Program-made: the position numbers and the translations under genes | In this document: piece by piece, positions 33,843 through 58,100 of the stretch | How the letters are laid out: every line of letters starts with the position of its first letter | Numbering within the stretch: the first letter of the stretch is position 1 | NCBI GenBank assembly: GCA_037893245.1 | Contig: JBAIAA010000433.1 | Coordinates: 1,116,001 to 1,180,000 of the forward strand | Origin: Crossaster papposus | Taxonomy: Eukaryota > Echinodermata > Asteroidea > Velatida > Solasteridae | Direction of reading: 5' to 3' | DNA: 64,000 bases | Notes under the pieces: generated by a model | Database searches by the model: none | The model's input: the letters and a program-made list of their open reading frames with translations, nothing else | Told to the model about the DNA's origin: nothing

Positions 33843-33929
33843 TGCAAACAACTATCTGAACATTACAGGAATGAATATTTTTGATCAAGAGCCCTCACTG
33901 GTCCATTCACCATCACGCGCCAGCTGCTT

Positions 33930-34310
33930 TTATCTCAGTTAAACTTCTGGTAATGATTATTCCATTGCAATATTTTCAACAAACAACAAAATCTTATTAT
34001 TTGGTAGTTATTGGCCAGTTTTTCCCCCATGTTCAATTTTCTTGAACTGATGACAATTTTTAATTATCTCAAGTAAACTTCTGGTATGATAACTAATTCA
34101 TTGCAATATTTTCAACAAACAACAAATTGAGGTAAACTTCTGGTAATAATTAATATATTTCAATATTTTCAACAAACAACAAATCCTTTTCATGTAGCAG
34201 TTAATTGGCCTTTTTCCCCCCTATGTTTAAATTTCTTGAACTGATGACAACTTTTAATTATCTCAAGTAAACCTCTGGTACTAACTAGTCCATTGCAATA
34301 TTTCCCCCAT
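33930..34310. repeat. Short interspersed direct repeats overlapping the 3' end of the SAM-protein gene
   Basis: Phrases such as AAACTTCTGGTA, CATTGCAATATTTTCAACAA and TTGAACTGATGACAA recur in order with spacings of roughly 60-190 bp. They form a degraded tandem duplication that abuts the stop codon of the minus-strand gene at 34285, so it would lie mostly in the 3' UTR. Confidence 0.65.
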
Positions 34311-35443: not shown

Positions 35444-35680
35444 CTGTAAATTTAGAAACCAAGAACGGAAAACTTCGGATCTAGATTTTTTATTTTTGTT
35501 TTTTTTCTTATTTTTGTTTTTTTAATTTATTTTCATGTATTTTTTTGGGGGGAGGGAGAGATCATCAATAAAACCCAACGTGTGCAAGACTGTCTTCAAT
35601 CCGCAGTGTTGGCAGTGAGATTTTGCACTAGGCCATGACGCTTAAAATAAAATAAGGAACACAAGTGATGGGGTGTCTAA

Positions 35681-36709: not shown

Positions 36710-36721
36710 TCACCGCCCTTC
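36710..36721 (-). promoter_or_regulatory. Polypurine-tract-like sequence
   Basis: On the minus strand, GAAGGGCGGTGA lies immediately before the 3' LTR, where plus-strand DNA synthesis of an LTR retrotransposon is primed. The tract is short and contains two pyrimidines. Confidence 0.55.
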
Positions 36722-36828
36722 AAAAAAATAATTTTACAAAGGAACATTATTTGTGTTTCCTCTATTTTTCCTGTCGTCTTAGTTATTCTAACGGAGCCCA
36801 AATAAATACATTAATATTAGCATGTTTT

Positions 36829-39800
36829 CTACACTCGAGAAAGAGTATCGGCAATTACGTTTTCTTTGCCAGCAATGTGAACAAGCTTCAAAGCATATGG
36901 TTGCAACAAGAGACTCCAACGAAATAGTCTCTGGTTTTTGGTTTTGAACTTTTCCAAAAATACAAGAGGATTATGGTCGGTGTACACAGTTACTTCACTC
37001 GTACCACATGTCACATAAATATCAAAATGTTGCAATGCCAGGATCAAACTCAATGTTTCCTTCTCAACTGTAGAATACATCTTTTGATGTTTGTTCAACT
37101 TACGAGAAAAATAGCTAACTGGGCACTCTATTCCATCAATATTATCTTGAAGTAAAACAGCCCCAACTCCGATATCACTTGCATCAATGGCAATCTTAAA
37201 CGGATGTTCAAAGTTCGGGGCAATTAACACAGGTCTATTAATCAACACTGCCTTTAGTTGATCAAAAGACTTTTGACACGACTCTGACCAGATAAATTTA
37301 GTGTTTTTCTGCAACAAATTTGTCAGTGGAGCTACCACTTGACTAAAATTTCTGACAAACTTTCGATAAAATCCAATCATGCCAATAACTCTACGTAATT
37401 CCCGTTTGTTTGTAGGAATAGGCAACTCTGCTATAGCTTCAACCTTTGCTTCACGAGGGTAAACTTGACCCTGTCCTACAATGTGTCCTAAATACGTAAC
37501 TTGGGCTTTTGCAAATTCGCTCTTTTTCAAGTTTATCACCAAGTTTGCTCGAATGAGTGCGTCAAACAATTCTGTTATATGTTTAACATGATCATGCCAA
37601 GTATCACTGTATACAATAACGTCATCTATATAAGCTACACAGTTATCTAGTTTTGCAGTGATATTATTCATAAGTCTTTGGAATGTTGCCGGTGCATTTT
37701 TCATGCCGAACGGCATCACTTTACACTGATATAACCCGTCTGGGGTAACAAAAGCGGACACTTCTTGAGCTCTATCTGTTAAAGGAACTTGCCAATATCC
37801 TTTAAGTAGGTCAATTTTACTGACATATTTGGCCTTTCCTACTTTATCGATACAATCTTCTATTCGAGGAATCGGATAGGAATCAGTTTTTGTTACTGCA
37901 TTAACTTTCCGATAATCAATACAGAACCTCTGAGATCCGTCTGGTTTAGGTATCAAAACAATAGGTGAACTCCAGCTACTGTCACTTGCTTCAATGATAT
38001 TATGCTCCAACATGTATTTTACTTCTTCCTTAACCATTTTTGATTTTTCTGGATTAAGTCGGTAAGGATGTTGTTTAATCGGCATACTTTCACCTACATC
38101 AACATCATGAATGGCTGCAGAAGTACTGCCTAACACATCGGTAAAGATCTGCTTATGTTCCCCAATTAACTGTACAATGTCACTCTTCTGATCTTCTGGC
38201 AAATAATTAAATGCATCATCCAAGTTCTTTAGGATTTCAGAATTTGATACTCTAGTTGATAAAGGATCCATCTTATTTTTTTCGAACTCTGGAACCGGCT
38301 CAACTAGATCACTAGACTGACTTATACTCTTATTTACAACAGAAAATGTAGCTACTGGTTCACAACACTCTCGTTCAAAATACGGCTTGAGCATATTCAC
38401 ATGACACAACCTTTTACGCTTTCTTCTATTTGGCGTGTTGACAATGTAATTAACGTCATTAAGCCTTTTCCCTACTTCATACGGTCCACTAAATCTAGCT
38501 GAAAGGGAATCACCCAATACAGGTAACAACACCAATACCTTATCTCCAGGTTTGAATCTACGAGCTTTGGCTTTCTTGTCAAACTGCATTTTCATTGCTT
38601 TCTGAGATGTTTTGAGATTAGCACTCGCCATTTCACAGGCCTTAGTGAGTCTTTCTTTGAACGAGCTAACATAATCCAACAGATTACATTCTTCTTTTTC
38701 ATCCAAGAATTTCTCTTTTATGAGTTTAAGTGGGCCCCTTACTTCATGGCCATAAACTAACTCAAAAGGAGTAAATCCGGTAGACTCGTTAGGTGTATCT
38801 CTGGTGGCAAATAAGACAAAAGAAATACCCTTATCCCAATCTTCTGGATACTCTACACAATACGCCCTGAGCATGGTTTTCATTGTCTGGTGATATCGCT
38901 CCAAGGCTCCCTGTGATTGAGGGTGATAAGCGGACGAAGTAAGTTGCTTGATTCCTAATTCCTTCATGACCTGCTGAAATATTCCAGACATAAAGTTTGA
39001 ACCTTGGTCAGACTGAATTTCTTTTGGCAACCCGTATCTTGTGAAAAATTTAACTAGGGCATCTACAACTATTTGAGCCGTAATTCTCTTCAAAGGTATA
39101 GCCTCGGGGAATCGTGTGGTCATATCCATAATTGTTAATAGGTAATTAAACCCAGATTTAGTTCTTGGTAATGGACCTACACAATCTACCAGTACTCTAG
39201 TAAAAGGTTCGTTACAAACTGGAATGGGTATCAGCGGGGCCGGCTTAATAGCTGGCTGTGGCTTACCAACCAGTTGACAAGTATGACACGTTCTACAATA
39301 GTCTACAACATCTCTGTGTAATTTTGGCCAATACATGTGTTGTAATATCTTAGCTTGGGTTTTCTTAATACCCAAGTGACCTGCTACTGGCACCGAGTGA
39401 GCTAATCTAAGTATTTCACTACGATAACTAGGTGGAACAACAATCTGATGTACGACTCTCCATTCTTCATTTGCTGGACTATCAGGAGGCCGCCATTTTC
39501 TCATCAGAATCCCTGACTTTACGTAGAAACATTCTGGAACAGTATCGGCTTCTTCCGAGGTCAATGCATTATCTATCAAGATCTTTAGATTAGAGTCTGT
39601 TTGTTGTTCTTTAATTAGCTCATTTCTTGTGAACATCAGACTTTTGGAATTAGTTTCATCCATATCATTATCTAAATTGTTAAAGAACGTTTCAGCCAAT
39701 CTAACATCTGAATCTTCTGGTATATGATAGGAATTGTTCACATCTTCAACAGCTTTTTGAGATTGTGATCTAGTCACGACACAGGCAGGAAATATCCCTG

Positions 39801-41436
39801 GATACTCTTCTTGTAAACATTCTGTTTCAACTCTAGCTTCTGGCTTATCTATCACTTGAGGCGAGGCACAAACTTTGTCACCAGCTATGTCATTACCTAA
39901 CAGAAAACTGACTCCCTCAATAGGAAGTGACGAAACTACGCCTACGACTACAGTGTCATTAACTAACTCAGACTCTAAGTTTACCTTATACAAAGGTACT
40001 GACACATAACCTCCCTCAATACCCTGAATTAAAGCACAAGCTTTATCTGAACTAGAAGAGGACAACGAAATCACATCCGCAAGCATTAACGACTGTGCAG
40101 CTCCTGTGTCTCTTAAAATAACTACAGGTTGTTTCTTACAATCACCTGTAATTAGTGAAACCTGACCTTCTGATATGAAGCTTCTATATACTTTTGATAC
40201 GTCATTCACAACTTCATCCATAACATTATTCCTAATCTTATCCGTTTTCTGATCATCTATAGCCACATGCGTTTTAACAAAAGCAACTGGCTTAGGAGAC
40301 ATATCTTTCTTCCATTTCCAACACTGGGCTTTAACATGACCCTTCCTATTACAATAATGACAAGTTATTCTAGAACTAGAAAAATTAGCCTTTACGCTAT
40401 CCTGAGAAGCATATGGTTTGTTATCTGCTCGTGAAGATACTTGCAAACCTTTCTGATCTCTTACTCTATCATTCCTCTGGTCAAACAACTTTCTTGTCCT
40501 AGGCCCACTAATGTAATGAGCCTGCTGAGGTTTGGTTAACATATGAGTGAGTTCGTAATCATCTGCCATTACAGCCGCTTGACGAAAACTAGTTACTTTA
40601 TGATCATCTAGATGAGTCTTAATCTCTACAGGAAGGCTATTCTTAAACTCTTCAAGCAGCACTACTTCCCTGAAATTTTCAAAGTTTTTTTCAAGTTTTA
40701 GCGACCTATACCACTGATCAAGAACTATCTCTTTCTCTCTAGCGAACTCTACAAATGTGTGCCCAGACTGTCTTGTCAGTCTTCTAAATTTCTGCCGGTA
40801 GGCTTCAGGCACCAAGGCATATGCGGTTAAAATTGCAGCCTTAACCTTAACATAGTCGGAAGATTGTTCCTCTGACAGAGTACTGTAAACCTCCTGAGCT
40901 TTTCCAACAAAAATGCTCTGCAATAACAATGTCCAAAACTCTACTGGCCACTTTAAACGATTCGCAATTTTCTCAAAGGAAACAAAGTAAATCTCTACAT
41001 CCTTTTCGTTAAACTTAGGAACTAGCCTAATGTTTTTGGTCAAGTCAAATTCAGGAAGGGGTGTTTTAACATCCTTAGTTCTTACTTTAGCTTCGATTTC
41101 AAATAAATGATGCTCATGTTCTAGCTCTAACTTCTTTAATTCAAACTCTCGATCTTCTCGTTTTTGGCGTTCAGCGAATTCCAATTTCAGCCTTTCCTTC
41201 TCTAACTCTATCTTGGCAAGCTCTATTCGTTCGTGACTATTACTTAGACTTAGAGTGCCTAATTGCAGGTTACCAGCAATGGCCTCAACCAATTCAGCCT
41301 TTCTTAATTTTGAGGAAACTGTTAGGCCTAAATGGTCAGCTATGGCCCTAAGCTCAGCCTTTTTAAGAGTTCCTACTTTCTGCAAGGACAAGTCTTCTGA
41401 ATCTAAAAATTCTTTAACATCAAAAGGATTATCCAT
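36829..41436 (-). CDS. Gag-Pol polyprotein, domain order Gag-PR-INT-RT-RNaseH
   Basis: Single uninterrupted frame of 1535 residues from ATG at 41436. Residues 1-~350: Gag-like region with a charged coiled-coil segment (about 65-125) and a retrotransposon gag core (about 130-300). CCHC knuckle: C359, C362, H367, C372. Protease: DTG at 443-445. Integrase: zinc-binding H680/H687 and C717/C720, catalytic D751, D810, E846 (35 residues between the last two), then a GPY/F-type module near 983-1018. Reverse transcriptase follows: VSKIDL with D1209, YIDD at 1269-1272. RNase H: D1418, E1458, D1487, D1530, ending at SRV. Integrase before RT is the copia-like order that defines Gmr1 elements, although the RT itself is gypsy-type. 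The key catalytic residues are present and I see no frameshift. Gag and Pol are fused with no frameshift site, so how their ratio is set is unclear. Confidence 0.93.
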   Translation of the reverse strand: MDNPFDVKEFLDSEDLSLQKVGTLKKAELRAIADHLGLTVSSKLRKAELVEAIAGNLQLGTLSLSNSHERIELAKIELEKERLKLEFAERQKREDREFELKKLELEHEHHLFEIEAKVRTKDVKTPLPEFDLTKNIRLVPKFNEKDVEIYFVSFEKIANRLKWPVEFWTLLLQSIFVGKAQEVYSTLSEEQSSDYVKVKAAILTAYALVPEAYRQKFRRLTRQSGHTFVEFAREKEIVLDQWYRSLKLEKNFENFREVVLLEEFKNSLPVEIKTHLDDHKVTSFRQAAVMADDYELTHMLTKPQQAHYISGPRTRKLFDQRNDRVRDQKGLQVSSRADNKPYASQDSVKANFSSSRITCHYCNRKGHVKAQCWKWKKDMSPKPVAFVKTHVAIDDQKTDKIRNNVMDEVVNDVSKVYRSFISEGQVSLITGDCKKQPVVILRDTGAAQSLMLADVISLSSSSSDKACALIQGIEGGYVSVPLYKVNLESELVNDTVVVGVVSSLPIEGVSFLLGNDIAGDKVCASPQVIDKPEARVETECLQEEYPGIFPACVVTRSQSQKAVEDVNNSYHIPEDSDVRLAETFFNNLDNDMDETNSKSLMFTRNELIKEQQTDSNLKILIDNALTSEEADTVPECFYVKSGILMRKWRPPDSPANEEWRVVHQIVVPPSYRSEILRLAHSVPVAGHLGIKKTQAKILQHMYWPKLHRDVVDYCRTCHTCQLVGKPQPAIKPAPLIPIPVCNEPFTRVLVDCVGPLPRTKSGFNYLLTIMDMTTRFPEAIPLKRITAQIVVDALVKFFTRYGLPKEIQSDQGSNFMSGIFQQVMKELGIKQLTSSAYHPQSQGALERYHQTMKTMLRAYCVEYPEDWDKGISFVLFATRDTPNESTGFTPFELVYGHEVRGPLKLIKEKFLDEKEECNLLDYVSSFKERLTKACEMASANLKTSQKAMKMQFDKKAKARRFKPGDKVLVLLPVLGDSLSARFSGPYEVGKRLNDVNYIVNTPNRRKRKRLCHVNMLKPYFERECCEPVATFSVVNKSISQSSDLVEPVPEFEKNKMDPLSTRVSNSEILKNLDDAFNYLPEDQKSDIVQLIGEHKQIFTDVLGSTSAAIHDVDVGESMPIKQHPYRLNPEKSKMVKEEVKYMLEHNIIEASDSSWSSPIVLIPKPDGSQRFCIDYRKVNAVTKTDSYPIPRIEDCIDKVGKAKYVSKIDLLKGYWQVPLTDRAQEVSAFVTPDGLYQCKVMPFGMKNAPATFQRLMNNITAKLDNCVAYIDDVIVYSDTWHDHVKHITELFDALIRANLVINLKKSEFAKAQVTYLGHIVGQGQVYPREAKVEAIAELPIPTNKRELRRVIGMIGFYRKFVRNFSQVVAPLTNLLQKNTKFIWSESCQKSFDQLKAVLINRPVLIAPNFEHPFKIAIDASDIGVGAVLLQDNIDGIECPVSYFSRKLNKHQKMYSTVEKETLSLILALQHFDIYVTCGTSEVTVYTDHNPLVFLEKFKTKNQRLFRWSLLLQPYALKLVHIAGKENVIADTLSRV

Positions 41437-41665
41437 TGTAGAACACTATACAACTAACGTCCACAAATTCAAAGACACAAATACATTACATAAACACAGT
41501 CGCATAAACTGGTTTCGCAAAGTTATCGTAAATCCTAAACTAATCATATCTATTTCATAATTTCAAATATTGACTAGTTTACATTTTGTTTCATTTTCTT
41601 TTCATTTCATTTCCAATTTCATTTTTTATTTTCAATTTCAATTTCATGTTTATGTTCATGGTCAT

Positions 41666-41683
41666 TTCCCGGACAAGCCCCCA
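41666..41683 (-). promoter_or_regulatory. Primer binding site, tRNA-Pro-like
   Basis: On the minus strand TGGGGGCTTGTCCGGGA begins three bases after the 5' LTR end. It matches the complement of the tRNA-Pro 3' end (TGGGGGCTCGTCCGGGAT) except for one internal base and the last position. Confidence 0.7.
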
Positions 41684-41686
41684 TTT

Positions 41687-42715
41687 TGTTATGATCCCAA
41701 ATCTAACAAGTACATTTACCGCGAGAAAAGTCTCATTCCTCTCCCCAGAAAAGGAACCAAAACAAAGTGGAAACGAAACGAAGTAATAACACTTAATAAT
41801 ATAATTAATCACACAAAAATACAGAAGATACGATTAAATACAGACTTGATGTAATAAAAACACATTACCAGTATTTGCTTGAACTTAATATGAAGGGGCG
41901 AGCAGCTGGCATTAACAAAACAGTTCAGTGTTTTAAAGCAATGAAGCGTTGAAACTCCGGGCTCACGGCGACAACGACTCCTGGTGACAACGAATCCAAG
42001 CGACAGTGACTCCCGGCGACAACGACTCCCGGCGACAGGAAAAGGGGGGAATAGGGCTCTTCTAACGGGTCCTTCCGTTAGCTAACAGCTCGGCTAACAT
42101 GCCATGCTCGATGAACTGTCACGCACGTCGGACGACACACCCATAGCAGGTTGACTTCAGGATCCGATAACTCGGATCCAAGTCCCAATGTCCGACGAAA
42201 TCGCCAGTCCCGGACCAGGCAGCACAAAGTGCAAAGAATCACGCTGCTGTCTACATCGCCGAGCCACTCGACGACAAACAAACTGGACAGCAGACTCCCG
42301 GTCTCGGGTCCTCTGGCGCGTGCCCCAGGGGAACCTCCCCAAAAACAGCCGGCAGTGCGGGCACACTCGTGACACAGCTCACGGTCCTTTCCGTCCGATG
42401 GTGAGGGATGAAAGGCACGCCCCATAATGTGTCCATCCACTATATACCGTGACGAACATTCCATTTAGCGTACCGTAAATTCCGGCAACTTGGTCGCTCG
42501 AAAGTTTGTCGATTGTTTGATAATTTGCATAAGATTAACTGCTCGCCCCAATTGGGTTAATCTGCTCGCCCCAGATATTTAATCTGCTCGCCCCAGATAT
42601 TTACCTGGCTTAGAATTCTTGTTGTACAATGTACACAAACAAAACATACAATTTAAATACTGATGATCAACTAAATAACAAATACGAATAGTTAAATAAA
42701 TACCTCATCTTAACA
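41687..42715 (-). repeat. 5' LTR of the Gmr1-like element, with promoter motifs
   Basis: 1029 bp, matching the left LTR. On the minus strand a perfect octamer ATGCAAAT (42530-42523) lies about 77 bases upstream of TATATA (42446-42440), a plausible core promoter for the element. GC-rich repeated sequence follows downstream of the TATA box. Start site and polyadenylation signal were not identified. Confidence 0.93.
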
Positions 42716-42945: not shown

Positions 42946-43960
42946 AAAAAAGGGTTTCTTCAAGATGGGAAATTCAATGGTAATGGTGCGCACATCACCA
43001 TCCTTCAGGCCTTGAATCCACTGTCTTCTCTTTGTAAATGTGTCTCGCTGGAGTTTCTGCAGTTTGGGGCGATTAGGATTCAACTCGATGCACATATGTT
43101 TCATTGTCTCCACTGCCTCCTCATACGTCTGTCCATCCAAGTCATCTAAAACAGAAATCCAGTCCAATAGATGTTTAAATAGTACTGTAGATGCAAAGGT
43201 TAACATGAAATAAGACTTACAATAAACATGTTAGCTTGAGCAGTCTCACTAGCATTGAGGCAGCATATATGGTGGGGTCGTCATAAAAGTGAAATTTGGA
43301 ATTTTGGCCATTGAATGAACTCTTTACTATACCTCCATGTTCCTGAACAGCAAGAAACTGAGTAGCCCTTGAAGTTGTCTTTCCCTTGATGGCGGAATTA
43401 GGCTGTACCTTGAGTGACCTGTTCTTCCTTCTCCATCTGATGTTGCGAAGCTTCTGGGATAGTTTCTCATTGAAGTAGGACTGCAAATAGACAAAAAATG
43501 TTCCCGCAGGAGTCATATTATTATTAATTATTTCTGGTAATGAAACAGGATCCCTCAAAAGTGCCCTATGCACTGTAGCTCGAAAACCTGAAGAAACCTG
43601 TACAGAGAATACAATGAGCCTTTTTGAGGTATGGCTGACACAATAGAAGGGCGCTGTTTGATTTGGGTACAATCTGTTGTATTTTACCCAAACCAAACAA
43701 CGCCCTCCTATTGTGTCAGCCATACCTCAAAAAGGCTAATGAGAATTAAGAAGATACAGTTTTAGAGGTGGGAGCTGGGAAAACCCTAGAAGATTGAGGC
43801 ACCACAACCAAACGGTGAGCACTGTAGATTCTTATTACACATATAGTATATGTGTATATGATATACAGCTCTTGAACAGTGCCAAAAACAGACTTACCCA
43901 ATGATCTGCACCTTTGTGGCTAATGCAGGGATAGCTGTGGTACATATTTTTCTTGTGAAG
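42946..43960 (-). pseudogene. SAM-protein gene, middle exons E4b-E6
   Basis: E4b (43960-43898, 21 codons, HKKNMYHSYPC) resumes on the far side of the LINE and ends TGG|GTAAGT in phase 0. E5 (43480-43333) follows TCTATTTGCAG, contains FNEKLSQKLRNIRWRRK and ends GGAG|GTATAG in phase 1. E6 (43145-42946) follows TTCTGTTTTAG, contains YEEAVETMKHM and FTKRRQWIQ, and ends TTT|GTGAGT in phase 0. The E4b/E5 intron holds a 121-bp MITE. The E6/E7 intron holds the LTR retrotransposon. Confidence 0.72.
43617..43737. mobile_element. 121-bp palindromic MITE in a SAM-gene intron
   Basis: The two halves are near-perfect reverse complements. Ends are AGCCTTTTTGAGGTATGGCT and its complement, and the centre is a few unpaired bases near 43675. 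It is flanked by AATG at 43613-43616 and 43738-43741, a probable 4-bp duplication. It lies between exons E4b and E5, has no coding capacity, and could form a long hairpin in the transcript. Confidence 0.75.
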
Positions 43961-44271
43961 AGGTGAGCGCCTAACAAGCTGCCACTCAAATCAGCTCTGC
44001 AAATGTTTGCCAATTTCTTTGTGTTTTGCTTCATTTGTGTTCTCACTCTTATACCACTGGATTTGTTACAACACCAGGAATCTGCTGGACTTTTTCTGTG
44101 CATCTTGGAGTCATCTATGATGTGAAATTGGTGATTTTCTGTTGGATTTTTGCTGTGTCACATCGAGAAATTTGCTGTACAGAGCTAACACACACATTGC
44201 TGGTTGCATTGCTGTGCGGTCAGCCATCACCTCCATTACATAACACTGTTTATTATGCCCAGCTGTGGACA

Positions 44272-47200
44272 ATGGAGGTCAGCTTCCTGTTTATTCTCTC
44301 CCTGCTTGCTGGACCACTGTGCTCCAATGACTCATCTGTGGTCAGCTTTCAGCAATCAACATCAACTGTGTACAGTGCATGCACTATGCCAAAGACATTA
44401 AAATCCATCCAACATCGAAGATACCTTAAATGCCCTGTTCCTAATTACTATGACAACTCACCAGCTAGTTTTCACTTGGAAATTGTGATCTTTGGTGACA
44501 TTGCTCTAAATCCCGGTCCTGATGCTGAAAATAATTCGAACTCGGAAACCACTCTGAAATCTTCAATTTCCTACTCCCGTAACAAGCTTCTTAGTCTGCG
44601 TTATGCCCCATCTACACGTGCTACAACTTTACCTTCATGCCCTATTGAGTTACAGAATCTCGGACTTTTTGTAAATCCCAACTGTATTTACCAACCTACA
44701 CATCGTGGTAAAAAAGCGGGTCGCCGTAGAACAGTTCACCAATCACTACAGCCTGAACCCACACACCCATCTGTTCCAGCACCAGTGACTCACGCCAAAT
44801 CCCAACTCAGCTTTTGTGTTTTAAATACACAGTCCATCTGTAACAAGTCTGAAGACTTCGTGGATTTTGTTCTGCAGAAAAATCTGGACCTTGTTGCTGT
44901 GTCTGAAACATGGCTGAGACCAGGTGATGACCTAACATGTCGTCAGTGTACCCCTGCTGGCTACTATTTTCATCAAATTCCTAGACCTCACAAGACTGGA
45001 GGGGGAGTTGCAATACTTTACAGATCCAGTTTATGTGTCTCTGTGAAAGATAATAACATCCATTACACAACCTTCGAATCTCTTCATGCTGAAATAACAG
45101 GAAACTCAAAATCTGTTCGCCTCGTCGTTTTATACAGACCCGAAAGAGATGCCAACGGCCATCATGTGACTTTTTCAAGTTTTCTTCAAGAATTTGAGAA
45201 TTTGATTTTGGAATATCTCCTACACCCATCTGACATCATCATCACCGGTGACTTCAACATTCATGTTGATGACATCCATAACACCAATGCAAACCAATTC
45301 AAGCATTTGCTATCGGCTTATGGCCTTATCCAGCATGTCACGGAGCCGACTCATCGTCTCGGTCATTGTCTGGACCTTGTAATAACTCGTGATATCACCC
45401 CACCTGCTGTCTCTAACATTACGATTCTACCTGGATTATCAGACCATTATGCAGTTATGTGTAATTTGAGCCTGTGCAAGCCCAACATCCCAACCATCAC
45501 TGTAAAGACCCGACAGTGGAAAAACGTAGATCTTCCTGAAGTGTTCCGGGATATAGGAACTCATTTGGAAAAATTAAACCTCGATCATGACGACTTGAAT
45601 GTATATGTCAGCCAATACGAAAGTACTGTCCGTGACATCTTGGATTTACACGCACCTTTGAAAACAAGATCTGTCAAGGTCCGAACTGAATTTCCTTGGT
45701 TCAATGATGACATTAGAGCTGCAAGAAAGATTCGTCGTCAACTTGAGCGAAAATGGCGGGAAAACGGAAAACTTGAATCACACCGACGAGAATATCGCAA
45801 CCAATGTAATGTGGTTAGGAAATTGATCAACCAGGTGAAGATTACCCACTTCACATCCCAAGTTCATGAATCCTCAGGAGATCAAAAGAAGCTCTTCAAG
45901 ATAATTGATAAACTGTTGCTGAAACCCAGAACCCCTGTCCTTCCTTCCAACTACAATGATCAGGATCTGGCAAATGAATTCTCCAAGTTCTTTGTCACCA
46001 AGATTTCAGACATCCGCTCATCATTCTCATCGGCCCCTTGTGACATGCGCCAGACATCGCCACATCTTCACCAAGACTGTAGACTCTATGTGTTTGAGCC
46101 TACCACTGCTGCTGAGATTCAAAGAATTATCATGAAATCTCCTACAAAATCCTGTGAACTGGACCCAGTATCAACATCCATGATAAAGCAGAACATTGAT
46201 ACATTTGTTCCGTACATCACTGCACTTGTAAACAAATCTCTCAGCTCCGGTCACTTCCCCGATAGCCTCAAGATTTCCTACATCAGGCCGCTCATCAAGA
46301 AACCCAACCTGGACAAGGAGGTATTCAAAAACTACAGACCAGTTGCGAACTTAAAGTATCTCGGAAAAGTCATTGAACGAGTAGTTTCATCACGCATTCG
46401 CGATCATATTGATGCTTTCAACCTGTCCGACACGTTCCAGTCGGCATACAAGCCTTTCCATGGGACGGAAGTTGCAGCTAGTCCGTGTGAACAACGATAT
46501 TCTTTCAGCCATGGACAATGGAAACCTTACAGCACTAGTCCTATTAGACTTGAGTGCCGCTTTTGACACTGTTGACCACAACATCCTCCTCTCCCGGCTT
46601 CAGAATTACCTCGGCATACAGGACACAGCCCTAGCATGGTGCAATTCTTATTTCTCCAATCGAACTCAGCACGTGTGTATCGGCACTGCAATATCAGACC
46701 CGGTTGTCTTGAACTACTCTGTGCCACAGGGGTCAGTACTGGGCCCACAGTGGTTTACGCTGTACACTTTGCCAATTCGTGACATCATTTTAAAATTTAA
46801 CCTGAATTACCATGTCTATGCGGACGACACTCAGCTATACATCACGTTTAAATCTTCTCAAGAACATGCCAATGCCTCCATTGAAAGACTTGAGAAATGT
46901 ATCCAAGAGATTCGCCACTGGACGCAACAGAACTTCCTGAAGTTAAATGACGACAAGACAGAGTTCCTTTTATTTGGATCACGTCAACAATTATCAAAAG
47001 TTTCAGTGCCATACATTTCCATCGGTGATGCTCAGATAGCTCCCTCGTTGCAGGCTCGGAACTTGGGTGTTATTTTTGATTCGTCAATGACACTTCAACC
47101 ACACATCAACAACGTCATTCGTCTCTCAACATTTCACATCAGGAACATCGGTAAAATACGCAAGTTTTTGGACAAGAGCGCTACAGAAAAAGTAATTCAT

Positions 47201-47668
47201 GCATTTGTCACTTCTCGCCTTGACAACGGCAATGCCCTTTTCTATGGTCTTCCGCATAACCAGATTGCTCGTCTCCAACGCCTCCAAAACACCGCAGCCC
47301 GCATGGTTACACTCTCTAAAAAATCCTGTTCCATCACCCCCATCCTGGAACAACTTCATTGGCTCCCTGTCTCTCAACGAATAATCTTCAAGCTTATGCT
47401 AATTGTCCACAAAGCACTCAATGGCAAGGCTCCCCATTACATCTCAGAACTTCTTCAAGTTTACACTCCATCAAGGAACCTACGATCCAGCAACATGCTT
47501 CTCCTCAAGGAATCCAAGTCACGACACTCGTGGGGCGACAGACGTTTTTCTGCAGCTGCACCACACATCTGGAACTCTTTACCGCTTAATCTTAGATCTT
47601 GTCTGTGTACAACAAAATTCAAATCACTTCTCAAAACTTATCTCATGTCTCAGGTTTTCAAGAACTAA
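44272..47668 (+). pseudogene. LINE endonuclease-reverse transcriptase, one frameshift
   Basis: The frame is open from about 44026, but the first in-frame ATG is at 44272 (MEVSFLFILSLLAG, a hydrophobic leader). A 2A-like motif follows, then a basic, low-complexity linker. The apurinic-type endonuclease shows VLNTQS, VAVSETWL, ITGDFNIHV and LSDHYAV. Reverse transcriptase motifs include NYRPVANLKYLGKVIERV and FQSAYKPFHGTE. Near 46470-46490 the reading frame shifts (one-base indel). It continues in another frame with LVRVNNDIL, LLDLSAAFDTVDH, YSVPQGSVLGP and YADD (46817-46828), then the usual carboxy end to the stop at 47668. The single break is the only obvious defect, so the copy is young but probably inactive. 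Confidence 0.88.
44470..44520 (+). other. 2A-like ribosome-skipping motif in the LINE protein
   Basis: The codons for FGDIALNPGP lie at 44491-44520. The 2A consensus is D(V/I)ExNPGP; here the glutamate is replaced by alanine, and the NPGP core is intact. If it functions, it would release a leader of about 82 residues (counted from the ATG at 44272) from the endonuclease-RT protein. 2A-like motifs near the amino end are known in several APE-type LINE clades of marine invertebrates. Activity of this variant cannot be judged from sequence. Confidence 0.65.
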
Positions 47669-47818
47669 TTTATTTGTTCCTCTCATTTGTTATTGTTTCT
47701 TTCAAGTTAAATATTACTTTGTTTGTTTTTTATGGTCTCTGCGCCTTGAACACCCAGCAGGGTGGATATGTGCGCATTACAAATCTTATTATTATTATTA
47801 TTATTATTAAACGGCCAA

Positions 47819-47875
47819 AATCACCATAGTCACCACGGGTGGTGAGGTCAGATTGTGCAATCACATGGTAGGCAG
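47819..47875 (-). other. Exon E4 sequence next to the LINE insertion
   Basis: Coding sense of the SAM-protein gene (YHVIAQSDLTTRGDYG) continues right up to the LINE tail, so the LINE landed in coding DNA. Confidence 0.7.
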
Positions 47876-48418
47876 TTTCTTCTATAAACTTTGACCACTC
47901 TTTGTGAACTTCATTGTTCTTCAGAAGCGTCTGGATATGAGCCGAATACGACGGGATCGTCAATCGCTGATATGGATCTGTTGCTGATGAAGTAGCACTT
48001 GTGTTAGGCAGTGTGGTGTCTAATGGAGTTGATGACGGCTGCAACACGAGTAGACATTTATGTTACACATTAAAAACACATGTTTTCATTAAAATGGTTC
48101 ACAAAGTAGGATATACCCAGTACTTAAATTTATGCCATAAATTGATTTTTTTCCAAGTTACTGTCCATAGTGTATTTGCAGGGTTGGGTTTTTTTATGCA
48201 AATTTCATGCATGGCCGGATGTGCCCCCGAGGCTTCTAAACCTACCTGAACTGGGACTTTTTGATTTATCCGTTTCACAAGAGTTGACAACTTCCTGGCC
48301 ACACCAATCTTGTCGGGGAACATTTTGAATATGTCATCCTCTGTTAAGCTGAGGATTGCAGTTCCATCAACTTCATTTTCTGTTTGACGGGAAGAACAAT
48401 TAATGCCCAATTGCCTAC

Positions 48419-49909
48419 CGGTATTTTAACTATGGTTATTATTTTGAGAAGATCTGCAATAAATGCTGTGTACATTGTGGTTTTCACGTCATATGAACCA
48501 CACTTCATCAACATTTGAAGCATGACATACTTCACCTCACATGTTTGCTGATAGATTTGTGGCCATCTGTATGGGAGGTCCTCAGTTGTATTTAGGGCAC
48601 GAAGGTGATCGGTAACTTTCACTACAAAGCTGTTATAATGCGATGCAAAGTGTTGCACTACAAGATCTGCACAAATCAAATACTTAACATGTTCAATGAC
48701 AGCAATGCTCTTGACCATGACACATGTTGGCAAGCAGCCATCATCCCATGATGTTACCAGAACAGTCCCTACTTTGTATATCAACCCTTTGATCTTCACC
48801 TGAGTAGTCACCAGCAGTTCACATACACTATTATTATGCAGTTCAGTGCACCTAGATTTCAGGACCTGGATATGTTTAAAGTTGTTGATGGGTACTCTGG
48901 TTCCTTCCTTGACCTCATCACCAACATATAGGTAGGTTTGTGATCTGTCTCCACTTGCCTGTATCTGTTGAAGGCACATCCATCGCTGATGGTACTCTGT
49001 AACCGATTTTGCAATCGACTTAAAATTACGCCATTTGTGACTTTTGAACAGACCATGTTTCCCTTCCATACGCATGCACCAGTGGTGTCTCAAAGGACCA
49101 AAGAGAAGCAACTGCTGTGGAAAATGCAACATGTAGTGCATTTTTGGTGTGACCGATGTTTCAGGATAGAGTTCCACAAAACACTGTAGATAAGTCCCTA
49201 TCAGATGGACAAGGTTGTTGTATGTCCTTTCTGATGCTACTGGTGAAAGACAAAGCATATTGATCTGCTGAAGACGGATGAAATTGATCCAGTGTTTATC
49301 GTATTCTGGAATTAGGTGACCAACCATGAAGGGCAACAACATCACAAGATTTTTCATTGATGAAGCTGTTTGACGCATGGTGGAACCATGGTGCAAATCT
49401 CTTGCCTCAATTTTTTGCGGTTTATCACGAGCCTCAGATGAGCCATAACTGAAGTTCTCAATTATCCTTCCCAGGTCAGCAATTGTAAAGTACTTCTGTT
49501 GAAGCAGGTGAGTAAGTAGCAGCCTCAGTTGAAGACGATCTACCCCCTCCAAGAGAACATGCATTGGATCATGCAAAATGCATTTTGTCAGCTGAAACTC
49601 TGGAACAGAGAACAACAAACATTTGTTATTGATACCATATTCTTTGGACCAATATTTCCTGGTGTCTTTTGACAAACATTCAAGCATTTCACATCTGTCC
49701 CGATGCTCAGCTTCATCTCTCTCAGGACATTCTTTGGCAAAGAAGCACTTATCTAGTGCACTTCTACTAATATCACATGTTCTGCATGGTTTGTTAGCAC
49801 CTCCCACTCCTTCCTTGAATTCTCCAACAGCTTGTGCGGCAGGGGTATCACCCAAAAATACTGCCAACAGCCCATGAAAAAAGCTCAGCTTGATTCCTAA
49901 TTGACAGCT
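48419..49909 (-). CDS. Transposase catalytic segment
   Basis: This segment holds the conserved core: LGDTPAAQ, a CRTC cysteine pair, DPMHVLLEG (equivalent to the plant DLMH/EKN region), SPVASERTYNNL, TPKMHYMLHFPQQ, and FGPLRHHWCMRMEGKHG. A less conserved carboxy part extends to IVKIP at the possible donor site at 48419. No internal stop is seen in this stretch. Confidence 0.85.
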
Positions 49910-50488
49910 TCACTCCTTTGTGAAGACTCTGGAGTCCATTATGGAAATCTTTGAGAAGAGTTTCACTGCCATGCCTCTTCATGTCTACTGATTTTGCGAC
50001 TGCTATCAACTGTATCACAGACAATTTGCTACGGAATTCTGGAGGAATGTTGAGCAACACGTAGTAAAATGCACAAAGCTTGTGCTGCCGGGTATGAGAA
50101 CCAATTGGGTTTACAAGTTCAAATTCATCAAAGTATGCAGCAAACAGGAGGGCACCTGGATGTTCATCCAAGAATTTACTGTCTCTCAACAACTTTCCAT
50201 CTGTCACATCAGACATCAGTCGTTCTGAAACAAAAGGAGCCTCTCTCATACATTCCTGGACTTCTGTCATGGATAGAAATGATTCTAGATTATCAAGAAA
50301 GGGCACAAAGTATCCATAGTCAGTTTTCGATGACAGTTTGTAACTTCCTTGGCATTTCTGACGGGCTAAATGATTTCCCATGATAACAGCTTTAGGCATG
50401 ACTGACCTAAGATGTTCTTTCATGTACTTTTCTCGTTTGTAACAGGTATCAAGCTCTGCAAAAGCTGTATCTACATCAAGAAGATGAT

Positions 50489-50908
50489 TTATCTCCTGAA
50501 GTGCCTCTGGTTGAAGTGTTTTACGGCATTGAAGCGACTCCTGTACAACTCCCGTACATTTATGATCACCTCTTGCATAGCTGCATTACTCAAATGATGT
50601 GCAGCTTTAAGCTTCAGGAGAAAAGCTGCTTCAGCTTTAACTGTGTCTAACTCATCAAATTCGTCTGAATTAGCACCCATTTCATCCTCTATGTCATCCG
50701 CTCCACAAATTGATTCCCTTTCATTGTGACACCGTTTGATATGGATTTTAAAGCTATTATATTTCCTGAAAGAAGCCCCACAGCCTGCTGCACTGCAGTG
50801 AGCAATGAATGAAGGTGCATTTCTATGCCTGCGCACAATATGCTGCAAAATATTTGGAGTACTGGAGGTGAAGTATGGGCACATGCTACATTGTTGAACA
50901 TTGGCCAT
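50489..50908 (-). CDS. Transposase amino-terminal zinc-finger segment
   Basis: A 139-codon frame from a genuine ATG. Two C2H2 fingers are followed by an acidic stretch (DDIEDEMGANSDEFDELD) and a helical segment ending ELYRSRFNAVKHF before the frame closes at the first break. The fingers probably bind DNA, by family analogy. Confidence 0.8.
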   Translation of the reverse strand: MANVQQCSMCPYFTSSTPNILQHIVRRHRNAPSFIAHCSAAGCGASFRKYNSFKIHIKRCHNERESICGADDIEDEMGANSDEFDELDTVKAEAAFLLKLKAAHHLSNAAMQEVIINVRELYRSRFNAVKHFNQRHFRR

Positions 50909-51070
50909 AATGATTATATTTATGTTCGAGCTTCAAGTGTTAGTTCCCAGTCAAAAGAAAAATGTCACCTGCAATATACAAAAAAAACCAATGATATAGT
51001 TAAAGCGTTAGCTACGTACCTCCCCTGTCTAAAACAAAAAAATGAATGTTTCACGTTTGTGCGATGGAAA

Positions 51071-51152
51071 AAATAATTTAATGAGGTGACAGATGGAATG
51101 TTTTATTCCATACATTCCATCTGTCACCCGACTCACCTCATAAAATTATTCA
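51071..51152. repeat. Hairpin-forming inverted repeat between SAM exon E2 and the transposase start
   Basis: AATGAGGTGACAGATGGAAT on the left pairs with the complement CATTCCATCTGTCACC on the right, and outer AT-rich bases (AATTTAATGAGGT, ACCTCATAAAATTATT) pair as well. The right arm has a short insertion (CGACT). It is either a small MITE remnant or a structured RNA element in the intron ahead of the transposase ATG. Confidence 0.6.
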
Positions 51153-51597
51153 TACCATCACACTCATTAACATTCATTATTTGTATATTATATTGTACAA
51201 CGTACCTCCAATCACAGTAAGTGAAGCTTCTGACATGTTCTCAATCCTCAGCCACTCAAGAACTTCCTCAACTGTTGACTGACTATTAATCTCCATTTCA
51301 GTTAACTGAAAGCATTTGGAAAGAAACGTTATTCACAAACACTAGGCTAAATTCATATACTTGATTTAAGTATTATTCACACATGCATTTGTGAATCTCA
51401 GATGAGACATGATACATCAGTCGTGTGTGCAACTGCAAGTGCATTTTTTTCTTCAAATATGTAAAACAACAAAAAGATTTTAGAATATTCAGTTGTTGTT
51501 TACATCTTACTCGTGAGCTGTATACCTCTTGATAATGATAAAGCTGGTAACATGCAGCTACGACCAACATAGTTTCAGAACTGTTTTTCGCAGACAT

Positions 51598-54189
51598 GGT
51601 TTATATGGAACTTATAGTCTAATATTGGGCACAATTATGGGGCTAACTTCATCCACACTCAGATTCATTGACCCAGAATCTGCATCTAAATCCACACATG
51701 AGTTCTATTCCAGGTATGACATTTTGGGGGGTCAAAATTACCTAGACAAAAAAGTCAATTTGATCCCAAAAGTGCAATTTTCGACCCAAAACATTTTCAT
51801 TTTTGACCCGGAAAAGGAATGTGCAGATTTTGATGCAGATCTGGGTCAATATGACACAGGAGTTTTTAGAGTGCATATATTCACACATAAAAATGTTACT
51901 TACTTGGCTCAACGGTCAACTGCCTTGCTCACAAGTCACATGTGCAGTACTCTGACCAAACGACCACAAAGCTGCAGCTAGGGTATGCACAAATCATAGG
52001 GAAAAAAAGGCAGTGAATATTTGACCATGCGCATCGTCAGAAGACTTTTTTACCGTAATAAATTTCGTCTGACTACATTGTTGTGACTTTACATGTACAT
52101 TTGTTTTGTATGTCATGTTGTATGTTCACGAGATGCCCGGGAATCAGACCAAATGCAATTTCAGACTACATTGTGTATTTTCCTTATAGTTAACCAGTTT
52201 CGCCGAATGACGTGTATCCCCATAAACGCAAAAAAACACACAAGCAACGCATACTAGACTACATTCTGCAAACAAAAAGAGTTATGATCCGGAGAACAAT
52301 TTTGATGACCAAGCTGAAAAAGAACTTCTGAGATTTAAATTTTGGTGAAAGGGTTTCTTTAATGGGTACCTGGGTTTCTTTAACGGTCACCCGGGTATAG
52401 GTAAACACACGAGTGATCAGGTCAGCTGACGTCGCGCTGCAGAGTCGCGTTACGTTATTGGTCGGGACGCGAGCCCATACGTGACTGATAGAGTTGACCC
52501 TGTACAGTATGTCGTGGAATTTGAGTCCCCGTTCAGTCCCGTGACAAATGTTCTTGACATAGTCTCAAAGAGCTGTAGATCACATTGATAGGCCTACCTT
52601 TTTGGGGAGAATTAGGCCTATGTTTGAAAAAGTGATTTTTGTTTTTGTTTTAGAAAATCAAAAAAGCTGATCACAACAATTAAGCATAATCCAAATCCTT
52701 TTGAGTTACCAAGTCCAAAATTGACTATCGTTGTAAGGCCGACGTTCAGGAAACCTTATCTTTTTTTGAAGTAGGCCTAGCCCCGGTTGATTATAGGCCC
52801 GATATAGGTCTAGTAATAATAATAATAATAGGCTTAAAGTTAATACTATTTTTTTACACATTTTGACACATTATGTGCATATGGGCGATTAGGCCTAACG
52901 TTATCCTTATTACAACCTATAAGGCTATAGGATATCAGCTCTTAATATACGGATTAATATTTTATTCTTACGTGGACATGCATCTTCGTGACATTTTGGA
53001 ATCTTTTCTTAATTTAGTCGAACTGCACAGTGCAGTTTGCAATCGTTTGCCTAACCGCCATATTGTATGACCTCCCCGAGTGTATTGACATGATTGACCC
53101 CAAAGCTGCATCGTCATCATGGTCGTGTTACTGCACTATCGATGTTGACGTGCACCCAACTCGTGAAACTGACTGCGCAGATTGTCATGCCGTACTAGGC
53201 CGGGCCACACTGTGGGGGCTATAGACTAGACCACATGCCATTATTTGTGTGTGATTATACTAGGTAACGAATTAGGGCCTAACGTTCATGACGTTGGCTA
53301 CATGATCGAATTATGCCTACGCGGCCTAGGCTAGGCCTTGTTAACAATAACAATACATGATGAATAGGCCCAGCACCCCAGGGCTAAGTAAAACGGTTAC
53401 TGGGAGGCCAAATGTTGCGACGAGCTGTGCACGCCTGCGCAGACTTGTTCCGTCATATTGTTTTGCGTTTATTATATTTATAGCGAATTATTTTAAAACT
53501 TTATAAGGCAGATTTAGAGACAAATTACACCAGACGCAACCACGGAAAAATTCAAATTTTGGCTAAATATCGATGCGCTATAATAAATGAACCTGCATGC
53601 CGAGTTTGAGACCGAATATTCTCCATGAAATAAGTGGAAAAAAATCCCGTTTTTGTTTGCACTGTACTGTATGGCATACAGCACAGAGTGTAAAAACTAC
53701 TAGGTTTTACGTTAAGAAACTACTACCTCGATCATGTAGTAATATTAGGGCCCATTATAACATTACATAGCCTACGATAGCTTGCACAAATAACTTTTCC
53801 GTAGGCTAAATATGAACGTACTATAACTTAATAACTTACCAAAAATGTTGTCGCCTCGGGCGCGGCTGCGGCGATGATGAGTGCATGAAACTTTATGACA
53901 TGATATGCGCGCATGCATGACATGCATGAATTCCCGCCTTTTTGCAAGTGTGGGCCGTATTCTGGATTATCATTGGTCAACTTATCCTTCTCAAACTGCT
54001 TTTGCTACTCGCTGTGTACGTGTACGTACGTGTGTAAGGGTCACATGAGAAGGATGTTGATTTTCATTGGTATGCAATTACAGGAGACGCGCTGTTGGGA
54101 CCATTTTTATGAACGCACCATACTGTAGGCATTGTCAAATATTGTCCAATCAAAAATCGACACGGAACGCGGAAAATATGAGACAGACA
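51598..54189. other. Upstream region of the EnSpm genes, non-coding
   Basis: 2.6 kb between the first SAM exon and the right subterminal repeats. No conserved frame is visible; the longest open frame (about 150 codons near 51.5-52.0 kb, plus strand) overlaps exon E1 in antisense and has no recognisable motif. On the minus strand a CCAAT box (GACCAATAACG, near 52460) and a TGACGTC-containing GC-rich stretch (near 52430) could belong to the promoter. A short TAA microsatellite lies at about 52814-52830. 52.58-53.36 kb is rich in AGGCCTA words. Confidence 0.45.
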
Positions 54190-55127
54190 TAAACGTTAAA
54201 CATGTCTAGCTAGCTCCACCAGCTAACCATGTTTAGCTTTGTGACGTTTACAGTGGATACGCGATTAGCATTTAAACACTTTCTAAACGCATGTCATTGT
54301 AACTGTGCTAAACATGTTTCCGCCAGCTAACCATGTTTAGCTTTGTGACATGAACAGTGGATACGAGATTAGCATTTGAAAACTTTCTAAACGCATGTCA
54401 TTGTAAAGTGCTAAGCATGTCTCCAAAAGCTAAGCATGTTTAGCTTTGTGTGTGACGTGAACAGTGGATAAGCGATTAGCATTTAAACACTTTCTAAACG
54501 CATGTCATTGTAAAGTGCTAAACATGTCTCCGCAAGCTAACCATGTTTAGCTTTGTGACGTGTACAGTGGATACGCGATTAGCATTTAAACACTTTCTAA
54601 ACGCATGTCATTGTAAAAATAGCTAAACATGTCTCCGCAAGCTAACTATGTTTAGCTTTGTGACGTGTACAATGGATAAGCGTTTAGCATTTAAGCCCTT
54701 TCCTAAACGCATGTCATTGTAACACGTCCGCAAGGTAACCATGTTTAGCTTTTGTGACGTGTTCAATGGGTACGCGTTTAGCATTTAAACACTTTCTAAA
54801 CGCATGTCATTGTAAAAATAGCTAAACATGTCTCCGCAAGCTAACTATGTTTAGCTTTGTGACGTGTACAATGGATAAGCGTTTAGCATTTAAGCCCTTT
54901 CCTAAACGCATGTCATTGTAACACGTCCGCAAGGTAACCATGTTTAGCTTTTGTGACGTGTTCAATGGGTACGCGTTTAGCATTTAAACACTTTCCTAAA
55001 CGCGTTTTATTGTAAATATATAAACACATGTCAAAAAGCTAAACACGTTTAGTTAAAAGGGAACAAGCGTTTAGCATTTAAACACAATTCTAAACGCGTT
55101 AATTGCAAACATGTTTCCAACGTGTTT
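54190..55127 (-). repeat. EnSpm right subterminal repeats (~104-bp unit)
   Basis: About eight degenerate tandem units contain CTAAACATGT, AACCATGTTTAGCTTTGTGA, GATTAGCATTTAAACACTTT and CTAAACGCATGTCATTGTA. The last phrase recurs near 54300, 54403, 54615, 54719, 54813 and 54917. The array differs in unit length and sequence from the left one, but both are dense in CTAAAC/GTTTAG and ACATGTTTAG, and the sequence nearest each end is most alike. Confidence 0.8.
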
Positions 55128-55153
55128 AAAAGCTAAACGTTGTTTTTACAGTG
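55121..55153 (-). repeat. EnSpm right terminal inverted repeat
   Basis: Reverse complement begins CACTGTAAAAACAACGTTTA and matches the left end for 26 bp without mismatch. TA follows at 55154-55155. Confidence 0.9.
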
Positions 55154-58100
55154 TACTCATGAGCGTCACCAGGCGGCGCTCTTTCTTTCAATTTTTGTGT
55201 TAGTTACAATGAGCGCCGTATTTAGTGTAGTGGAACCTATATGAATCAAAGATGGCGGCGCACTAAACTGTAGCGCTCCATTTTACGCGCCATTTTAGAA
55301 CAGCAAGTCCACCGCATTTAATTTTTTGAAGTGGTTACTGTATTTTACGTAAATTTTCATTGTTTTGAGTCCCATTTTTCTCACCAAAGGCACCAGTAAG
55401 TGCTATTAAAGGGTGCATGTGACTAAATCAGTGAAAATGACTGCGCGCGAGCTCAATAATATTTTGTGATCCCTCCGGTAATTTTGAATTAGAGGTCCCT
55501 GGGGCCTATACATTGGACTGATTGTAGAAATAATTGTGGAAATCAAGAATTGGTGACCCGTGGCTTCCAACTCGGGGGATTTCGTTGACAGAAAAGACCA
55601 ATACCAGGGTCTATTTCGCATAGAGGCGGGGGGCTACATTGATACCTGGGCCCAGAGCTGGGCCACCGGGGTGGTTTGTGTGGAGGGGAGTATAAACAAA
55701 AATTATTTCGGTCAACCCCCATCAATTTGAAAAGAAAATTGTTCTAGGTGATTTCCAGTCAAAAAAATATGGCCACTCTACTCATGAGCGTCACCAGGCG
55801 GCGCTCTTTCTTTCAATTTTTGTGTTGGTTACAATGAGCGCCGTATTTAGTGTTGTGGAACCTATATGAATCAAAGATGGCGGCGCACTAAACTCTAGCG
55901 CGCCATGTTACGCGCCATTTTAGAACAGCAAGTCCACCGCATTTAATTGTTTGAAGTGGTTACTGTATTTTAGGTAAATTGTCATTGTTTTGAGTCCCAT
56001 TTTTCTCACCAAAGGCCCCAGTAAGTGCTATTAAAGGGTGCATGTGACTAAATCATTGAAAATGACTGCGCGCGAGCTCATTAATATTTTGTGATCCCTC
56101 CGGTAATTTTGAATAAGAGGTCCCTGGGGCCTATACATTGGACTGATTTTAGAAATAATTGTGGAAATCAAGAATTGGTGACCCGTTGCTTCCAACTCGG
56201 GGGATTTCGTTCACAGAAAAGACCAATACCAGGGTCTATTTCGCATAGAGGCGGGGGGCTACATTGATACCTGGGCCCAGAGCTGGGCCACCAGTTTAGG
56301 GGTGGTTTGTGTGGAGGGGAGTATAACAAAAAATTCATTTGGTCAACCCACATAAATTTGAAAAGAAAATTGTACTAGGAGTCTTAATCTTTGATTTCCA
56401 GTCAAAAAAAATATGGCCACTCTACTCATGAGCGTCACCAGGCGGCGCTCTTTCTTTCAATTTTTGTGTTGGTTACAATGAGCGCCGTATTTAGTGTAGT
56501 GGAACCTATATGAATCAAAGATGGCGGCGCACTAAACTGTAGCGCTCCATTTTACGCGCCATTTTAGAACAGCAAGTCCACCGCATTTAATTTTTTGAAG
56601 TGGTTACTGTATTTTAGGTAAATTTTCATTGTTTTGAGTCCCATTTTTCTCACCAAAGCCACCAGTAAGTGCTATTAAAGGGTGCATGTGACTAAATCAG
56701 TGAAAATGACTGCGCGCGAGCTCATTAATATTTTGTGATCCCTCCGGTAATTTTGAATAAGAGGTCCCTGGGGCCTATACATTGGACTGATTTTAGAAAT
56801 AATTGTGGAAATCAAGAATTGGTGACCCGTTGCTTCCAACTCGGGGGATTTCGTTCACAGAAAAGACCAATACCAGGGTCTATTTCGCATAGAGGCGGGG
56901 GGCTACATTGATACCTGGGCCCAGAGCTGGGCCACCAGTTTAGGGGTGGTTTGTGTGGAGGGGAGTATAACAAAAAATTCATTTGGTCAACCCACATAAA
57001 TTTGAAAAGAAAATTGTACTAGGAGTCTTAATCTTTGATTTCCAGTCAAAAAAAATATGGCCACTCTACTCATGAGCGTCACCAGGCGGCGCTCTTTCTT
57101 TCAATTTTTGTGTTGGTTACAATGAGCGCCGTATTTAGTGTAGTGGAACCTATATGAATCAAAGATGGCGGCGCACTAAACTGTAGCGCTCCATTTTACG
57201 CGCCATTTTAGAACAGCAAGTCCACCGCATTTAATTTTTTGAAGTGGTTACTGTATTTTAGGTAAATTTTCATTGTTTTGAGTCCCATTTTTCTCACCAA
57301 AGCCACCAGTAAGTGCTATTAAAGGGTGCATGTGACTAAATCAGTGAAAATGACTGAGCGCGAGCTCATTAATATTTTGTGATCCCTCCGGTAATTTTGA
57401 ATAAGAGGTCCCTGGGGCCTATACATTGGACTGATTGTAGAAATAATTGTGGAAATCAAGAATTGGTGACCCGTGGCTTCCAACTCGGGGGATTTCGTTC
57501 ACAGAAAAGACCAATACCAGGGTCTATTTCGCATAGAGGCGGGGGGCTACATTGATACCTGGGCCCAGAGCTGGGCCACCAGTTTAGGGGTGGTTTGTGT
57601 GGAGGGGAGTATAAAAAAAAATTCATTTGGTCAACCCACATAAATTTGAAAAGAAAATTGTTCTAGGAGTCTTAATCTTTGATTTCCAGTCAACAAATAT
57701 GGCCACTCTACTCATGAGCGTCACCAGGCGGCGCTCTTTCTTTCAATTTTTGTGTTAGTTACAATGAGCGCCGTATTTAGTGTAGTGGAACCTATATGAA
57801 TCAAAGATGGCGGCGCACTAAACTGTAGCGCTCCATTTTACGCGCCATTTTAGAACAGCAAGTCCACCGCATTTAATTTTTTGAAGTGGTTACTGTATTT
57901 TAGGTAAATTTTCATTGTTTTGAGTCCCATTTTTCTCACCAAAGGCCCCAGTAAGTGCTATTAAAGGGTGCATGTGACTAAATCAGTGAAAATGACTGCG
58001 CGCGAGCTCAATAATATTTTGTGATCCCTCCGGTAATTTTGAATAAGAGGTCCCTGGGGCCTATACATTGGACTGATTGTAGAAATAATTGTGGAAATCA

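Follow-up and report, generated by a model that had tools for sequence, protein, structure and literature searches.

Structure of the element

The DNA examined in the present study is a 64,000-nucleotide stretch of the Crossaster papposus genome (contig JBAIAA010000433.1, positions 1,116,001 to 1,180,000; hereafter the window), in which positions 32596 to 55155 hold what is probably a degenerate copy of a two-gene animal CACTA-like transposon of the CMC clade, comprising a transposase gene and an accessory gene for a SAM domain protein. Both genes lie on the minus strand and are enclosed by one pair of terminal inverted repeats (TIRs), the 37-nt arm at the 5' end of the element (TACACTG..., 55119-55155, minus strand) being 95% complementary to that at the 3' end (32596-32632, plus strand). 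The same TIR was also found at the ends of other genome copies. The motif GTTTAG/CTAAAC was counted 26 times in 32596-33400 and 29 times in 54100-55155, so that subterminal repeats are present at both ends, as tandem units of approximately 94 to 199 bp on the 5' side (54214-55133) and as a 41-bp tandem unit with GTTTAG on the 3' side (32613-33213). It occurs only once in the 8,566 core bases counted (33401-35680 and 47814-54099) and at 2.3 to 2.8 per kb in the flanks; the copies are not independent, because many stem from tandem arrays, the units of which differ between the two ends.

The accessory gene is predicted to comprise approximately nine exons (E1 to E9) on the minus strand, running from 51597 to 34285 and hence far beyond the limits of 48344 and 51597 given in a preliminary description of the locus. 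As that description had claimed, E2 (51206-51305) and E3 (48246-48379) have AG/GT borders and matching phase (phase 1) and together encode one SAM domain. Joined, they exceed the Pfam cut-off for SAM_3 (E 4.2e-6, 27.0 bits; cut-off 22.6) and resemble the solved SAM domains of Sfmbt and Scm in the PDB (2e-6 and 1.2e-4, respectively), whereas E2 alone stayed below the cut-off (5.2e-4, 20.3 bits) and E3 alone gave 0.22 to SAM_1. The AG/GT borders of E2, which has its own ATG, and those of E3 are kept in all three other copies described below, and E3 is 52% identical over 31 amino acids to an exon downstream of the transposase in the related family C381. The E2 donor ranked 11th of 1,237 GT sites and the E3 acceptor 16th of 1,295 AG sites; all such ranks derive from simple vertebrate weights and are to be read as weak evidence.

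Phases agree at all junctions from E1 to E9, with phase 0 into E2. E4 is interrupted by a long interspersed nuclear element (LINE), which splits it into 47808-48038 and 43898-43945, and is unbroken in copy C1012; E1 to the first part of E4 form one open frame, and the second part of E4 to E9 another, which ends in TAG at 34287-34285. Reading frame and comparison of copies place E5 at 43333-43480, E6 at 42946-43145 and E7 at 35330-35443, followed by E8 (34882-34992), which is absent from copy C53, and the last exon, E9 (34285-34635), which matches protein P0001 (63% identity over 104 positions) as well as exons of the related families C381 and C117. The coding status of the putative first exon, E1 (51526-51597), is doubtful, because the sole exon indel among copies, of 1 bp in C1012, falls there and E2 has its own ATG. 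Against the protein collection, the C-terminal piece of the SAM protein had a single match among 448 candidates, namely P0001, and the N-terminal piece had none at E 1 or better among 586 candidates. Viral and prokaryote contigs searched for the transposase or the SAM protein gave no match.

The intron between E2 and E3 (51205-48380) is directly seen to contain the transposase gene, a single exon at 48489-50908 on the same strand encoding C2H2-like fingers followed by a RAG1-like DDE fold. It has an ATG of its own, preceded by an in-frame stop, and is broken in the window by three frame changes, near 50520, at 49880-49895 and near 48515. The preliminary description rightly placed the whole transposase in this intron; the end at 48344 that it used is a frame-shift artefact, the 521-amino-acid open reading frame (ORF) ending there overlapping E3 only through the change near 48515. 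The closest relative, P0002, ends in ...KYVMLQNVDEVWFI, and the equivalent stop in the window is at 48491-48489, 109 bases before E3; the transposase is therefore wholly intronic.

Residues D269, D362, C383, C386, H458 and E623 occur in all 49 aligned relatives, which were chosen from 120 listed, and H454 in 31 of them. The window copy retains these motifs, spread over separate frames, and the arrangement of D, D and E with C(2)C and H(3-4)H between the second D and E is that of CMC/CMCT transposases. No Pfam Transposase_21 (tnp2) match was obtained for the window frames; one of ten proteins scanned gave a value of 0.0017, below the cut-off, and relatives P0006 and P0058 each had a sub-threshold match to Plavaka.

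Other copies of the window family

Searching the genome (1.02 Gb) identified at least three further copies, C1012, C251 and C53 (40 of 1,251 candidates scored), giving four with the window. The order E2, transposase, E3 is present at the DNA level in all four. Both TIRs are present in C1012 and C53, and one in C251 within the stretch examined. The transposase is open over 815 codons in C1012, the SAM gene of which has one stop in E2 to E4; C251 has an insertion and a stop in its transposase and a SAM gene open from E2 to E9; and C53 has a transposase with a frame change and an insertion before it, and a SAM gene that lacks E8 and a portion of E9. In these copies, all exons found retain their splice dinucleotides, except for a GC donor at E6 of C53.

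Indels among the copies fall at one distinct position in 1,509 exon bases, within E1, versus 24 in 2,493 intron bases (binomial p 1.2e-4, with any position common to several copies entering the count a single time). Each copy contributed at most 1,503 exon bases to the comparison, and C53 contributed 1,192. E2 to E9, where present, are thus free of indels relative to C1012, C251 and C53.

All three copies with both ends (window, C1012 and C53) have CACTG..CAGTG termini, and hence the CA..TG ends of the CMC type. TA stands outside CACTG on both sides in each and may be either a target site duplication, which in the CMC clade is 2 to 5 bp long, or part of the terminal repeat. The three bases outside CACTG match in none of these copies, and those outside TACACTG match in the window (CTC/CTC) and differ in C1012 (gca/gta) and C53 (aag/ctc).

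Related families and their accessory genes

A transposase search of the genome gave at least 57 matches (55 of 391 candidates scored). A total of 30 loci were retrieved, of which 20 were tested for accessory exons after six window-family and four C117 duplicates had been dropped; linkage counts therefore cover only loci retrieved by transposase. In nine of the 20, an accessory exon lies downstream of the transposase on the same strand at E 0.002 or better, namely a half SAM domain (L019), CIDE-N exons (L021, L027, L029, L032 and L033) and E4 (L026, L028 and L030), with transposase identities of 36 to 41%. These loci represent approximately six families, since L032 shares the CIDE-N exon of C117 letter for letter, L029 and L033 have a common exon, and L028 and L030 are near copies. 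L044 had only an exon of the type found upstream of the C315 and C489 transposases. A few opposite-strand accessory matches (E 0.004-0.05) were weak and taken as chance.

Three accessory types could be recognised from their front exons, relatives in this genome keeping the accessory gene and swapping its front domain for SAM, CIDE-N or a third-type exon. In C381 (transposase 41% identical), E3, E4, E5, E7 and E9 follow in order downstream of the transposase (E 2e-8, 9e-8, 1e-6, 6e-4 and 5e-18, respectively), with E6 reaching only E 0.18 and E8 and E2 not found; no convincing TIRs were seen within 17.0 kb of this copy. The C117 family comprises five copies, some of which may be haplotype duplicates, with an identity of 99.6% or more across 5.4 kb. 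E4, E5, E6 and E9 (E 6e-11 for E9) were detected downstream in the single copy read far enough, and no TIRs were convincing within 20.9 kb. The front of its accessory protein is a CIDE-N domain (Pfam E 1.1e-16; PDB Drep2 5e-10, with CIDE proteins also among the PDB matches), a domain known from proteins of apoptosis and of lipid droplets. In C315 and C489, a conserved third-type exon, the SAM likeness of which is weak, ends just before the transposase ATG, the next accessory exons come after the transposase, and borders of matching phase are readable by eye. The nesting of the transposase between coding exons is observed in the window family, is probable in the third type, and does not apply to the CIDE-N type.

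When 23 transposases were placed in a tree, a supported branch separated each front type from the other two (SAM 95/96, CIDE-N 100/99, third type 100/100). This comparison is based on seven typed rows, two or three per type, with 16 untyped rows left out; shuffles did as well in 72 of 500 cases for SAM and in four of 200 for the three types together. The pairing of accessory gene and transposase looks old, and the exact nesting differs between types.

CIDE-N exons are carried by L021 to L025 (the C117 family), L027, L029, L032 and L033, of which L032 and L033 have the first CIDE-N exon only. The transposase of L019, a member of the C381 family, shares 82% identity with a protein of Patiria miniata across 602 positions, which exceeds the identity of the window family to any protein listed and probably reflects an echinoderm host, or else movement of the element from one species to another.

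Placement among known transposons

The locus had initially been described as an animal EnSpm. The CACTA-like character, the transposase in the SAM-gene intron and the single TIR pair are borne out in an element with four copies; it fits the wider CMC clade rather than EnSpm/CACTA in the strict sense, because the strict rule of a 3-bp target site duplication does not hold. The parallel with maize En/Spm is apt. In maize, the tnpD ORF lies within the intron-1 region of the tnpA unit, with a somewhat parallel organisation in Tam1 and Tgmt (PMC2613891). Both En/Spm and the window element have subterminal repeats and CAC termini and place the transposase ORF in a large intron of an accessory unit with several exons. 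Unlike En/Spm, the window element has an accessory protein of SAM type, a transposase that splits a coding domain, and TA at its ends without a 3-bp duplication.

Among animals, a similar layout is already on record for SmTRC1 of Schistosoma mansoni, a CACTA-like element of the TRC group reported in 2006, most expressed sequence tags of which carry the transposase ORF in none of their exons (PMC1636069). Its authors ascribed two cloned short transcripts to truncated copies and found a 2-bp direct repeat in seven of 14 copies. SmTRC1 differs from the window element in its length of 4.5 kb, a suggested CCC core in its termini, which the (TA)CACTG termini of the window lack, and accessory proteins reported as not detectably conserved; neither SAM nor CIDE-N was noted in the sections of its description consulted. 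With maize En/Spm and SmTRC1 as precedents, nesting of this sort is not novel in itself. Fungal EnSpm, ESTA and Plavaka elements with TET/JBP genes similarly combine a CMC-clade transposase, including C(2)C and H(3-4)H, with a second gene, which is, in contrast to the window element, a dioxygenase, with no nesting in the part of the account available (PMC12730594).

The catalytic part shares its fold with RAG1 and Transib, with only 8 to 14% identity in structural alignments to RAG1, RAGL and Transib chains, and no RAG2-like partner was seen for the window transposase; the fold does not by itself make it a RAG/Transib member. What is new here is a conserved accessory family with predicted exchangeable SAM and CIDE-N fronts. 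No description of a SAM or CIDE-N accessory gene in such transposons was found in the open-access literature, in which CIDE-N together with transposase was not searched.

Proposed mechanism and alternative explanations

We consider it probable that the SAM gene and its intronic transposase act as one element, expressed from one precursor RNA under a shared promoter, with a SAM protein that works in a TnpA-like manner. Skipping from E2 to E3 would give the SAM protein, and the transposase message would arise through splicing at 50968 or from an intronic start. A predicted 3' splice site (50968-50970, minus strand; AG at 50970-50969, first exon base 50968) lies 60 bases before the transposase ATG and is the best of the 1,295 AG sites, and the sense strand from 50908 to 47814 has no AATAAA or ATTAAA versus 3.1 expected. 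Although both are weak evidence, they suggest that the two messages most likely derive from one precursor, with a choice between skipping and including the transposase. SAM and CIDE-N domains can form head-to-tail polymers, and the SAM protein may self-assemble through its SAM domain and so bring the ends to the transposase. Because TnpA recognises subterminal repeats (PMC2613891), the SAM protein would probably, by analogy, gather on the GTTTAG arrays.

Several observations weigh against this explanation. The exon structure is known from DNA alone, with splicing inferred from it, and some borders rank poorly (E1 donor 172nd, E5 donor 135th, E6 acceptor 187th). Accessory pieces scanned against Pfam gave no recognised DNA-binding domain. 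The ratios of nonsynonymous to synonymous change in the SAM exons range from 0.53 to 1.48 over six pairs with no clear sign of selection, which they do not establish because they rest on few changes. In ten of the 20 related loci (L034 to L043), no accessory exon was seen in the 1.5 kb read; their transposase identity is 27 to 33% in seven and 39 to 47% in L035, L038 and L043, so that the presence of the accessory gene cannot be predicted from transposase similarity alone. Upstream of the transposase in C381, no E2 was detected, and what seems to be another element lies nearby. The expectation that other elements of this genome would pair both genes in the same order holds for at least three further copies and fails for the CIDE-N type. 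In that type, every accessory coding exon found is located 3' of the transposase, and these exons have an ATG of their own; among them are the two that encode the CIDE-N domain in C117, where an AATAAA follows soon after the transposase stop, as two units would have. The separate accessory unit named in the preliminary description as counter-evidence is thus partly realised in these relatives.

These features of the CIDE-N families, together with the own ATG and upstream in-frame stop of the window transposase, are what would be expected if the same element contained two transcription units, the transposase having an intronic promoter and its own poly(A) site and the nesting being a by-product of compact packing. 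This alternative differs from the single-precursor explanation in the RNA step only, and we regard it as a serious competitor that is nevertheless rather unlikely, since, on the same weak evidence as above, the top-ranked acceptor shortly upstream of the transposase start codon points to a spliced leader, and the stretch from the transposase to E3 is free of canonical poly(A) hexamers.

Capture of a host SAM gene by the window family alone, with no role in transposition, is improbable. The closest SAM domains among solved structures do belong to host Polycomb proteins, and the substitution ratios are near or above one in two of the six pairs; against this, transposases of the other two types are also accompanied by parts of the C-terminal module (E4 to E9), and front type agrees with transposase phylogeny, findings that fit long co-inheritance. 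That the transposase is a separate, smaller transposon inserted into the intron of a SAM gene unrelated to it is highly improbable, even though transposons are often intronic and a hairpin-armed dispersed repeat lies in this intron (approximately 51026-51193), since no exact inverted repeat longer than nine bases joins the two intron margins, matching TIRs lie outside both genes, the pair is present in all four copies found, and the accessory gene accompanies the transposase in related families too, so that common borders and repeated pairing refute it.

The single-element explanation opens to testing in animals the puzzle posed by En/Spm, whose transposase is hidden in a partner-gene intron, because C1012 has an open transposase frame and the near-identical five-copy CIDE-N family provides an un-nested comparison. 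That one conserved accessory body is found with either SAM or CIDE-N suggests that the element needs self-assembly and not one particular domain, and, given the RAG1-like catalytic fold, a tractable member would also lend itself to informative comparison with RAG and Transib. More tentatively, and with rather less than even confidence, we propose that animal CACTA-like transposons have an old conserved accessory protein, the front of which (SAM, CIDE-N) has been exchanged between clades, and which forms filaments on subterminal repeats that pair the ends for a RAG1-like transposase maybe ending in a BAH-like part. Some host SAM genes, with SAMD3 as a candidate, may descend from this accessory gene.

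Later insertions and other repeats

Two insertions foreign to the element are both absent from C1012, C251 and C53. The LINE in exon 4 (43946-47807, plus strand) has Pfam Exo_endo_phos and RVT_1 matches, and a long terminal repeat (LTR) retrotransposon occupies intron 6 (35681-42715, minus strand; LTRs at 35681-36709 and 41687-42715), its label as gypsy being based on layout alone. The hairpin-armed dispersed repeat of the E2-E3 intron (51026-51193) has many further matches in the genome, mostly approximately 70 to 85% identical, and intron 4 of the SAM gene contains a 60-nt inverted repeat (43614-43740), the arms of which are 7 nt apart and 92% complementary. Outside the element, a long satellite-like array (748-25089) is composed of 169-bp tandem units recurring in blocks of two to four copies, within which an open stretch of 111 codons is repeated 11 times.
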